Origin: a virus
IMG/VR virus record: IMGVR_UViG_3300007354_000011
Location: 1 to 34,815 of that record
Reading direction: 5' to 3' (one strand)
Length of the DNA: 34,815 nucleotides
Made by a program: the position numbers and the translations under genes. Below, piece after piece: positions 11,506-16,771 of the stretch (its first letter is position 1; the number at the start of each line of letters is the position of its first letter). The notes beneath the pieces were generated by a model. It saw nothing but the letters and a program-made list of their open reading frames with translations. It had not been told where the DNA came from and searched no databases.

Positions 11506-11686
11506 CATCGTGATCGTTCCAAATTTGGTAAAGCTTGACCGTGGTGAAAGGTTTCTCCCACTTTGAGCCTAATATATGCAATTGTGTGGAGGAGAATCGC
11601 TGAAAGGCACATGTTTGGAGCAACTCTGCCCCACTTTCCGGGAGCGAAAACGATGTTTACCAATTTTGGAACAGTCACTTGACATC
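11501..11686. mobile_element. MITE-like insertion with inverted termini and 9-bp duplication
   Basis: A 168-bp segment (11510-11677) is flanked by direct copies of CTTGACATC (11501-11509 and 11678-11686). Its ends are inverted repeats of about 22 bp (11511-11532 and 11656-11677) that agree at 19 positions, including GTTCCAAAWTTGGTAAA. No ORF of useful length lies inside. Inverted termini plus a 9-bp target duplication are the marks of a non-autonomous transposon. The termini contain the palindrome-like CCAAATTTGG, so paired operator sites are an alternative reading. The interior has short repeated pieces such as CCCACTTT. Confidence 0.6.
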
Positions 11687-11707
11687 TTTGGATGTTTGTT
11701 CTAAAAT
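11679..11707 (+). promoter_or_regulatory. Strong sigma70-like promoter for protease/capsid genes
   Basis: TTGACA (11679-11684), a 17-nt spacer and TAAAAT (11702-11707) make a near-consensus promoter with a start expected near 11714. It would drive the protease, scaffold, capsid and downstream tail genes. The -35 box lies in the right copy of the 9-bp duplication; the left copy (TTGACA at 11502-11507) has no matching -10. Confidence 0.75.
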
Positions 11708-11725
11708 ATAAATGACAATTTCCCC

Positions 11726-11850
11726 AATACTGAGTATGAAGATGGGGACGATGCGTCCCAAGGGCATCTCAGTATTTTGAGCGGACGATTTGCGTCCTGG
11801 AATTTGCAGCAAGATCGAATCTTGCAGGCATATTTCAGGACGTTTTTATT
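11726..11850 (+). promoter_or_regulatory. Structured leader, candidate attenuator before the protease gene
   Basis: The roughly 147-nt leader contains AATACTGAG/CTCAGTATT (11726-11734 with 11768-11776), enclosing GGGACG/CGTCCC (11745-11750 with 11754-11759). GGACG (11783-11787) can pair with CGTCC (11793-11797). The same CGTCCTG (11793-11799) can instead pair with CAGGACG (11836-11842), enclosing GCAAGAT/ATCTTGC (11809-11815 with 11819-11825). That larger stem is followed at once by TTTTTATTT, like a terminator. The two pairings exclude each other, as in antiterminator/terminator switches. Confidence 0.55.
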
Positions 11851-11860
11851 TAGGAGAACT

Positions 11861-13213
11861 ATGCCTTATCTGAATGAACACGCAGCCCGATTAATGGATC
11901 CAAATCGCTTTGATCCAAATAGTTTTCGCCGCGAAAATGACAAATTTGGTGAAGGCATCCATGCCATTTTTGGCAAATTCAAAGGCGAAAAAGCTATGAC
12001 TTTGCAGGCAATTCGCTTCGATGCCAAGAAATTTACAGCTGAAGAGGCACGTTCATGGTTGAAAGAACATGAATATGAGCCATTGGAATTCGAGGAGGCT
12101 ACAGCTGAGAAGTCCATGCATTACTTTATGCCTCTTGTGAAAGTGGATATTGCAAAACGGGAAGTGTGGGGGATTGCAGCTATAGAAGAACCGGATCAAT
12201 CCGGTGAAATCATGGATTATTCTCGATCAAAGCCACACTTTATTGCATGGAGTGAGTCGATTAGAAAAGCTAGCAAAGGGAAGTCATTAGGTAACGTCCG
12301 CGATAGTCATACTACAAAGGCGATTGGAAAGGTAATTGTATTAGAGCCGAATGATGAACTAAAAGCATTCCGTGTAGGAGTCAAGGTTGTAGACGATAAT
12401 GGTTGGGAAAAAGTCATTGATGGTGTGTACACTGGATTTAGTATCGGTGGGAAATATGGTGATCGTTGGCCTGATCCTATTCATAAAGGACTAATACGTT
12501 ATGAGGCTATACCAACGGAGCTATCATTAGTAGATGTGCCCTGCATTCCAGGGGCGACATTTGAAGTCATCAAGGCAGACGGTGTAGTTGTTCATCGAAT
12601 GTTAAGCAAGGAGAAGCCAATGACAAGACGTGAAAGGATTATTCAATTACTCAAAGAAGCGGACAAATTGAACGATGAAGATTTGGCTGTTCTCATGGGA
12701 AAATTGGAGCAAATTTTCAATGAATCAGACGATGCAGAGTCAAATATTGACGGGACAGAAGAAGGTAGAGCGGTTGAAGAACAACTAGAATCAGAGTTAA
12801 CATCTGAGAAGGTGCGTGAGATCGTTTTTGCTGTATTAGAGGAATTAGGTTTTGTGCAACGTGTTGGTGAGCAAATGGCAATGACGACTAATTTGGGTGA
12901 TTTATCAAAGAGCATTACTGGGCAGGATGCGAAGATTGTCGCATTGAACAAAGCTCTTGATGAATTTAAATCTCAAATTATTGGTGATCTTGCAAAACTG
13001 GCTATTCAAGTTGAAGAATTGAGTAAACGTGGCTCGACGGGCCCTGTGATTCGAGAGTTGGGAGCGCTTGCGCCTGATACTGCGGCTGCATTGCAAAAAG
13101 CACAGGTTATGAAAGCCATTCTCAATGATATTGCTGATCCATTAGTACGTCAGGCCATGCAGAATGAAATCACCCGACTTGAAATCAAGGCATTACAATC
13201 GAACAAGCAATAA
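11861..13213 (+). CDS. Prohead protease (XkdF/U35-like) fused to scaffold domain
   Basis: The 450-residue protein has an XkdF-like serine protease domain at about residues 86-240, with KREVWGIAAIEEPDQSGEI, GKSLGNVRDSH (possible catalytic H150) and VYTGFSIGGKYG (probable nucleophile S194). A helical, acidic scaffold-like region follows (about 254-450). Proteases of this type mature the capsid by removing scaffold. ATG 11861 is chosen because AGGAG lies 5 nt upstream; an earlier in-frame TTG (11777) lies inside leader hairpins. A good internal start at 12620 could give the scaffold alone. Confidence 0.86.
   Translation: MPYLNEHAARLMDPNRFDPNSFRRENDKFGEGIHAIFGKFKGEKAMTLQAIRFDAKKFTAEEARSWLKEHEYEPLEFEEATAEKSMHYFMPLVKVDIAKREVWGIAAIEEPDQSGEIMDYSRSKPHFIAWSESIRKASKGKSLGNVRDSHTTKAIGKVIVLEPNDELKAFRVGVKVVDDNGWEKVIDGVYTGFSIGGKYGDRWPDPIHKGLIRYEAIPTELSLVDVPCIPGATFEVIKADGVVVHRMLSKEKPMTRRERIIQLLKEADKLNDEDLAVLMGKLEQIFNESDDAESNIDGTEEGRAVEEQLESELTSEKVREIVFAVLEELGFVQRVGEQMAMTTNLGDLSKSITGQDAKIVALNKALDEFKSQIIGDLAKLAIQVEELSKRGSTGPVIRELGALAPDTAAALQKAQVMKAILNDIADPLVRQAMQNEITRLEIKALQSNKQ
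12620..13213 (+). CDS. Nested in-frame scaffold protein
   Basis: AAGGAG (12608-12613) stands 6 nt before an in-frame ATG at codon 254 of the protease gene. The product is a 197-residue, highly charged helical protein (for example KADKLNDEDLA-like and EEQLESELTSEK stretches) ending 9 nt before the capsid start. This is the layout of lambda C/Nu3, where the protease gene contains the scaffold gene. Internal initiation would give the excess of scaffold over protease needed for assembly. Confidence 0.7.
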   Translation: MTRRERIIQLLKEADKLNDEDLAVLMGKLEQIFNESDDAESNIDGTEEGRAVEEQLESELTSEKVREIVFAVLEELGFVQRVGEQMAMTTNLGDLSKSITGQDAKIVALNKALDEFKSQIIGDLAKLAIQVEELSKRGSTGPVIRELGALAPDTAAALQKAQVMKAILNDIADPLVRQAMQNEITRLEIKALQSNKQ

Positions 13214-13222
13214 GGAGTAACC

Positions 13223-14716
13223 ATGATTGTCGAGAATCTTTCCCAACTTACACAGGAAGCGATCAACGAGTTTCGTAAAGCTGTGTCTAAGCCTGTGCCG
13301 GAACTGCTACAGAAGGCAGGTGTTACCCAGGCTACCGGTCTGGTGGCCTATGATCTACAGGCACCGGCTAAGAATCTTTTCCCGGTATTGACGCCTATTC
13401 GTAATAAGTTGCCACGTGTCCCTGGCGGAGGTGGTACAGCAACTAATTGGAAACGTGTTACGGCAATTAACACTGCTAACTTACTCGGATTCGTACCAGA
13501 AGGTAAGCGTAATGGTGTTATGGCAATCGCGTCTGATGATAAGAGTGCAAACTACAAGACGTTGGGCATGGAAGATAGTATTACTTATGAAGCAGAACGC
13601 GCCGCGCAGGGTTTTGAGGATATTCGATCTACCCAGGCACAACGATTACTCTGGGCAACTATGTTGCAGGAGGAATATGCTGTACTCGGTGCCAACTTAA
13701 GTGTAGCATTGGGTACGCCTACAGCTCCAACTGTGACTGTTGTAGATGGTGGTGGTACGATTGCTGATGGTACATATAACGTACGTGTAGTTGCATTAAC
13801 TTTGGCAGGATACTTGGCATCGTCTGTAACAGGTGGTGTGGTTGGACAAATCAGCATTACTCCGGCAGATGGAGGTGTAGCATTCACGTATGGCGGTGGA
13901 TCCTCGCAAAAATCGAATGCTACCAGTACAGGTGCTATTACCAACGGGAATGATAGTGCTATCCGAGCTTCAACACCGGTAGTACCAGGTGCAGTAGCTT
14001 ATGCTTGGTATGTTGGTTCAGGCGGCACAGAGTATTTGCAAGCAATCACTACGATCAATAGTGTAGAGTTAAAGTCACTGCGCACCGATACCCAAACTGC
14101 TGCATCTATTACTGCTGACAATAGCAAGAATTTGTTAGGCTATGATGGCATACTGTACACTGCATGGAACGCAGGCAGCAATGCATACATCAAAAATCTG
14201 CCGACTGGTACACCCGGCATTGGTACCGGTTTGACTGCTGATAATGCTGGCGGGATTGTGGAAATTGACGAGATGCTCGACAGCTTATGGGTAAATTACA
14301 AACTGTCTCCAACGACCATCTATGTCAATGCTCAGGAGGCCAAGAACATCACCTCGAAATTACTTGGTGCCTCCGGGGTACAATATCAGATCGCTGTCCA
14401 ACAAGGATCGGGATTTGCAGCTGGCTCAATTGTTACCAAATATTTGAACAAATTTGGCATGGGTGGTCAACAGTTGATTCCCATAGAAGTGCATCCATGG
14501 TTGCCACCGGGTGTGATGACCGCCGTTACTGAGCAATTGCCCTATCCAATCAACAATGTACCCAATGTTATGGAAATGCGCTTACGGCAGGATTATTATC
14601 AAATCGAATGGCCAATCCGCACGCGCCAGTATGAGACAGGTGTCTATGTAGAAGGTGTATTTGCTCACTATTTCCCGCCATCTATTGGGATCATCGCCAA
14701 TATTGGCAATGCATAA
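13223..14716 (+). CDS. Major capsid protein (HK97 fold) with inserted Ig/Fn3-like domain
   Basis: The 497-residue protein has the HK97-fold pattern. An N-terminal helix is followed by LPRVPGGGGTATNWKRV and the E-loop region, and it ends with a P-domain and A-domain (MRLRQDYYQIEWPI, GVYVEGVFAHYFPP). Residues about 166-287 form a strand-rich, G/T/A-rich insert with Fn3-like features (TYNVRVVALT, VAYAWYVGSGG). That insert would probably sit on the capsid surface. A strong ribosome site (AAGGAG, 13211-13216) precedes ATG 13223. It follows the protease/scaffold gene directly and should be the most abundant product of the late operon. Confidence 0.88.
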   Translation: MIVENLSQLTQEAINEFRKAVSKPVPELLQKAGVTQATGLVAYDLQAPAKNLFPVLTPIRNKLPRVPGGGGTATNWKRVTAINTANLLGFVPEGKRNGVMAIASDDKSANYKTLGMEDSITYEAERAAQGFEDIRSTQAQRLLWATMLQEEYAVLGANLSVALGTPTAPTVTVVDGGGTIADGTYNVRVVALTLAGYLASSVTGGVVGQISITPADGGVAFTYGGGSSQKSNATSTGAITNGNDSAIRASTPVVPGAVAYAWYVGSGGTEYLQAITTINSVELKSLRTDTQTAASITADNSKNLLGYDGILYTAWNAGSNAYIKNLPTGTPGIGTGLTADNAGGIVEIDEMLDSLWVNYKLSPTTIYVNAQEAKNITSKLLGASGVQYQIAVQQGSGFAAGSIVTKYLNKFGMGGQQLIPIEVHPWLPPGVMTAVTEQLPYPINNVPNVMEMRLRQDYYQIEWPIRTRQYETGVYVEGVFAHYFPPSIGIIANIGNA

Positions 14717-16621: not shown

Positions 16622-16771
16622 ATGAAATGTCCGATTTGTAATCGAGAAATCAAACTTGAAAAAGAGAAAGAGGTACAACGCGCCTATTGTGATTGCATCG
16701 GTTTCCGGCGTTGTGTTGTTGAAATTGTTCCGTCGCAAGGTAAGGAGGTAAAGAATGACCGCTCCCAATGA
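16622..16771 (+). CDS. 49-residue zinc-binding microprotein
   Basis: The small protein begins MKCPICNREIKLEKE and carries a second cysteine group (YCDCIGFRRC), giving a probable four-cysteine zinc site. GAGG lies a few bases before ATG 16622, and the 3' end overlaps the tail-tube start. The in-frame upstream start at 16586 would overlap the previous gene and lacks a site. It lies within late genes, unlike the other zinc microproteins. Its function is unknown. Confidence 0.65.
   Translation: MKCPICNREIKLEKEKEVQRAYCDCIGFRRCVVEIVPSQGKEVKNDRSQ

Follow-up and report, generated by a model that had tools for sequence, protein, structure and literature searches.

Why should a virus place its best promoter and its strongest terminator-like hairpin one directly behind the other, ahead of the genes that build its head? 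The locus lies in the virus record IMGVR_UViG_3300007354_000011, whose whole 34,815-nt sequence (the window) carries terminase, portal, head, tail, integrase and repressor genes. The first gene behind the leader (11861–13213, + strand, ATG at 11861) encodes a head maturation protease with a scaffold-like C-terminal region and is followed by the major capsid protein gene (13223–14716, +; PHROG 13692), relatives of which are annotated as major capsid or head proteins. An in-frame TTG extension from 11777, running through the leader, was rejected as the protease start because homologous proteins begin at MPY. The nearest capsid relatives in bacterial genomes (64–71% identity) belong to Bellilinea, Thermanaerothrix, Levilinea, Anaerolinea and other Anaerolineae-type Chloroflexota; as part of the attenuator explanation developed below, which as a whole we consider probable, the window would be a temperate phage of such hosts.

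The promoter is of the sigma-70 type (TTGACA-17-TAAAAT, 11679–11707, +), an 11/12 match and the best in the 34.8-kb window; its spacer ends in TGTTCT, as in several relatives, and it predicts a transcription start near 11714. About 85 bp further on lies a 52-nt hairpin (11792–11843, +) resembling an intrinsic terminator. With −30.3 kcal/mol it is more stable than any other hairpin of the window that has TTTT behind it (the runner-up reaches −15.3), so that the best promoter match and the best hairpin with a T-run stand in that order before a single gene start. A T-rich tract, TTTTTATTT (11843–11851, +), sits directly at the stem end, and transcript 3' ends are predicted there. The ribosome binding site AGGAG (11852–11856, +), unpaired in the predicted fold, comes next; TTTTTATTT ends 9 nt ahead of the protease start and the stem itself 18 nt ahead. 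The leader as a whole folds to −56.1 kcal/mol, compared with −35.0 kcal/mol for shuffled sequences (z = −5.5; none of 200 shuffles as good). Such an immediate block to a promoter by a strong terminator is easiest to understand as a regulated one.

A sequence-only reading of this DNA had proposed that the segment CGTCCTG (11793–11799) has two competing partners, and the letters agree. The upstream GGACG (11783–11787) pairs with CGTCC (11793–11797) in a small hairpin, P4 (GGACG-ATTTG-CGTCC, 11783–11797, +), and the downstream CAGGACG pairs with the full segment at the base of the 52-nt hairpin. Because the 3' arm of P4 is shared with the terminator base, the two structures are mutually exclusive, and P4 is the candidate antiterminator. 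The same reading had counted the GGACG/CGTCC unit twice upstream. Two copies of GGACG-N3..6-CGTCC do occur, exactly two in the 34.8-kb window (11746–11758 and 11783–11797) against 0.04 expected, but just one is additional, since the other is the switch hairpin P4 itself. The additional copy lies in a look-alike of P4, hairpin P3 (GGGACG-ATG-CGTCCC, 11745–11759, +). This first unit is enclosed by P2, a covarying 8-bp stem found by folding, with a 5' arm AATACTGAG (11726–11734, +) and a 3' arm CTCAGTATT (11768–11776, +); neither P2 nor the promoter had figured in the earlier reading. P3 and P4 look alike within a given type of leader, by AGGACG..GCGTCCT in the window's type (B) and by NAGAN loops in type A, a resemblance that we spotted post hoc.

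The same succession of promoter, structured leader, small hairpin P4, long terminator, T-tract and ribosome site stands upstream of the protease in relatives, both in prophages within the genomes of Bellilinea, Thermanaerothrix, Levilinea and Anaerolinea and in phages from metagenomes. Their T-tracts resemble TTTTT(G/A)TTTT, and in most members the ribosome site follows directly. Four leader types, A–D, can be distinguished. Type A (L003, L011, L082, L083, L085, L088, L119, L136, L138 and L127) has a hairpin 1 with a GNRA-type loop, a P2–P2b–P3 domain and a two-part P4; its GA(N)/TA internal loop and its NAGAN loops are conserved. Type B comprises the window, L009/L010 and L084/L087, which amount to three independent sequences. 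Types C (L002, L005) and D (L086) differ in their upstream parts and keep P4 and the terminator in the same place, P4 of L005 with one mismatch. L005 also carries an 18-nt palindrome, CGGTTGAATGTTCAACCG, at about 3690 near its predicted start site, which could be operator-like or a hairpin. At L007 (3064–3390), a leader of the same architecture stands one gene further upstream, before a tail-completion-like gene and not the protease, and in more distant phages (L211, 3270–3470; L209; L216) a long hairpin with a T-run lies directly before the protease. Distant capsid relatives in cultured phages leave little or no room for such a leader, which is therefore not essential to head modules of this kind in general.

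The ten type A leaders were aligned with plain MAFFT, and covariation was assessed with RNAalifold. Hairpin 1, P2, P2b, P3 and P4 were recovered unprompted, with 10 pairs changed on both sides. When the named type A structure was scored directly, 98.6% of cells were paired and 10 of the 22 pairs showed double-sided change, a result that none of 500 shuffles equalled; sliding the partners against each other made pairing collapse to 24–41%. P4 accounts for three of the double-sided changes, and the terminator, conserved in position, has three pairs changed on both sides. In type B, all eight P2 pairs form in the window (ATACTGAG/CTCAGTAT), in L009 (TGCTGAAC/GTTCGGCG) and in L084 (TGCTAGAC/GTCTAGCG) from largely different letters. 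With three independent sequences in type B, the window's own P4 is less well supported than that of type A. The antiterminator/terminator geometry suggested for this leader is supported, both stems being kept in relatives with compensatory changes, and none of the close relatives examined lacked the two alternatives. The leaders share two structural features of intrinsic-terminator attenuators, with a stable hairpin running directly into a T-tract upstream of the first gene and, in type A, a covarying, mutually exclusive antiterminator, for which type B offers few sequences. That an either/or design has been preserved while its letters changed suggests, at the level of sequence, that it is probably a real switch for virus-shell production.

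Folding energies indicate which state would prevail. The terminator fold was preferred over the P4 fold by 6–16 kcal/mol in 15 of 15 leaders tested; in the P4 fold the upper terminator stem persists and the base next to the T-tract is open. On its own, P4 of the window is weak, at −5.9 kcal/mol at 37 °C and −3.3 kcal/mol at 55 °C. These energetics point to OFF as the default, with a factor holding P4 for ON, although equilibrium folding does not prove how the RNA behaves during transcription. When upstream leaders were tested sequence by sequence for complementarity to the terminator arm, with T-runs picked by eye from the leaders, the values were not unusual for such RNA (mean z = −0.56), and P4 pairing was not beyond chance in single sequences. 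We therefore dropped this argument and place the weight on position and conservation.

We consider it probable, then, that the region is a default-OFF transcription attenuator gating the head (protease–capsid) operon, turned ON by a trans-acting factor that stabilizes P4. RNA polymerase would initiate at the near-consensus promoter (11679–11707), and in the nascent leader the upstream P2/P3 domain would fold before the small hairpin P4. Were P4 left unheld, the hairpin at 11792–11843 would capture its 3' arm and close against the T-tract, and transcription would end before the ribosome site. Were P4 stabilized by the trans-acting factor, presumably acting through the P2, P3 and P4 hairpins, the terminator base could not close and polymerase would read through into the protease, capsid and later genes. 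Two other modes of control were rejected. A leader-peptide attenuator of the trp/his type would need the leader ATG at 11712, a codon that is no further downstream than the predicted start site and that relatives lack; sequestration of the ribosome site was discounted because the predicted fold leaves it unpaired and neither of the competing stems includes it.

Among known systems, the lambdoid PR' region offers one parallel: a strong promoter is followed by an early leader terminator and then by late structural genes, which Q antitermination releases. Q acts via a DNA element and modifies polymerase for distant terminators, whereas here a local alternative RNA fold overlaps a terminator lying right against the ribosome site. 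No Q-family antiterminator was recognized among the window proteins scanned with Pfam and PHROGs, in a record that may be incomplete. The Mu-gpT-DE RNA motif is likewise described as a conserved RNA near phage head genes; the present leaders differ in matching no Rfam family.

A parallel in working is provided by the ANTAR-controlled leaders targeted by EutV, NasR and AmiR, in which the second of two hairpins overlaps the terminator, the unbound RNA forms the terminator, and binding stabilizes the antiterminator to allow read-through (PMC3369931). The second hairpin of the window likewise overlaps and excludes the terminator. ANTAR targets, however, have hexaloops with A1 and G4, whereas the loops here are 5-nt NAGAN in type A, ATG and ATTTG in the window and variable across type B, and it is a phage head operon that would be controlled. 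Scans of window proteins revealed no ANTAR domain, and control genomes likewise gave no match. As the loop rule does not hold and these scans showed no ANTAR protein in the window, we describe the leader as ANTAR-like in its working and do not file it as an ANTAR target. The likeness of P3 to P4 suggests, by analogy with the ANTAR systems (PMC3369931), that one binder, perhaps a dimer, may contact two hairpins.

The factor is more likely to be a phage protein than a host metabolite, because the upstream domain diverges strongly between phages of similar hosts. No antiterminator protein was recognized among those window proteins that were scanned against Pfam and PHROGs. Between the tail-completion and major tail genes, the window encodes a small Zn-ribbon protein (CPxC...CxC; 16622–16771, +) that belongs to no curated family and is kept in several leader-bearing phages; it was not found beside the L127 leader (L291 examined). 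It is a possible RNA binder and a mere candidate for the trans-acting factor.

The same observations bear on four other explanations. The type A multi-helix domain, with its GNRA-type loop, GA(N)/TA internal loop and NAGAN loops, is compact and aptamer-like, and the P2/P3 domain could be an aptamer for a metabolite or ion that reports host state and sets read-through into the capsid operon. We regard such a riboswitch as unlikely: unlike a metabolite aptamer, the domain differs strongly among the four leader types although their phages have similar hosts, it has no Rfam riboswitch match, and the leader was not found at host genes. It is somewhat less likely still that an excess head-module protein (the protease–scaffold, the capsid protein or another) binds the leader and promotes termination, even though the leader stands immediately ahead of the head genes. 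The terminator is the favoured fold even with no ligand bound, so such feedback could work only through folding kinetics, and scans of the head proteins recognized no RNA-binding family. Precedent for such autogenous control comes from the Bacillus subtilis rplJL leader, where L10 is reported to autoregulate by protein-controlled transcription attenuation (PMC4538822). The resemblance lies in attenuation within an operon leader under protein control, and the difference in the operon, which is a host ribosomal one, and in the RNA.

Alternatively, the long hairpin could be a constitutive element with no switching, one that just stabilizes the 5' region of the mRNA or serves as an RNase III or leaky-terminator site that sets expression level. 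Hairpins are frequent at the 5' ends of phage mRNAs, and the predicted fold leaves the ribosome site free; yet P4, the competitor of the terminator base, shows conservation with compensatory changes in type A and adjoins the terminator in all four types, and we give this possibility about as little credence as feedback by a head protein. Least probable is that the terminated leader of ~130–165 nt is made for its own sake as a phage small RNA, and that the operon depends on rare read-through or on upstream transcripts. Its own strong promoter, stable fold and strong terminator would suit such an RNA, and the lambda late promoter also gives a short leader RNA. The position of the ribosome site directly after the T-tract in most members, and the conservation of the alternative P4 fold, both argue against it.

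The leader RNA was found only in these phages. A type A model detected one copy per type A prophage, with one carrier among 396 Anaerolineae genomes; weak matches (E about 0.04) in three host genomes (L268, L269, L270 about 1500) were taken as chance because they lie in the coding DNA of ribosomal protein operons. Rfam gave no match at gathering level in the window and eight related loci, and leader-only scans returned merely unrelated sub-threshold matches. Searching cultured phages at the DNA level returned no match, and scans for P4-like strings hit mostly coding DNA or loci already known. Single-protein pattern scans with the protease (P0001) found nothing in genome and viral contigs, the patterns being too specific; alignments found the relatives. 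Our literature search, whose scope took in few subscription journals, turned up no report of such a capsid leader. Terminator/antiterminator attenuation is a well-known class; this RNA, its place at a head operon and the host phylum are new to the sources searched. More tentatively, the leaders may represent a new phage-borne class of protein- or ligand-sensing RNA that gates capsid production after initiation. In the lysogen the head promoter would be constitutive, with its transcripts truncated in the leader; during lytic growth the look-alike P3 and P4 would receive a phage signal that opens the operon.

Most of what is known about late-gene control in temperate phages comes from lambda-like models. 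If the attenuator explanation is true, a local RNA switch placed at the head operon would be a distinct solution, used in the Chloroflexota, a phylum whose phage biology is little studied. Two of the prophages sit in cultured hosts, Bellilinea caldifistulae and Thermanaerothrix daxensis, which makes the idea directly testable. Confirmation would provide a new protein–RNA or ligand–RNA pair and a handle on how capsid genes are silenced in such prophages.
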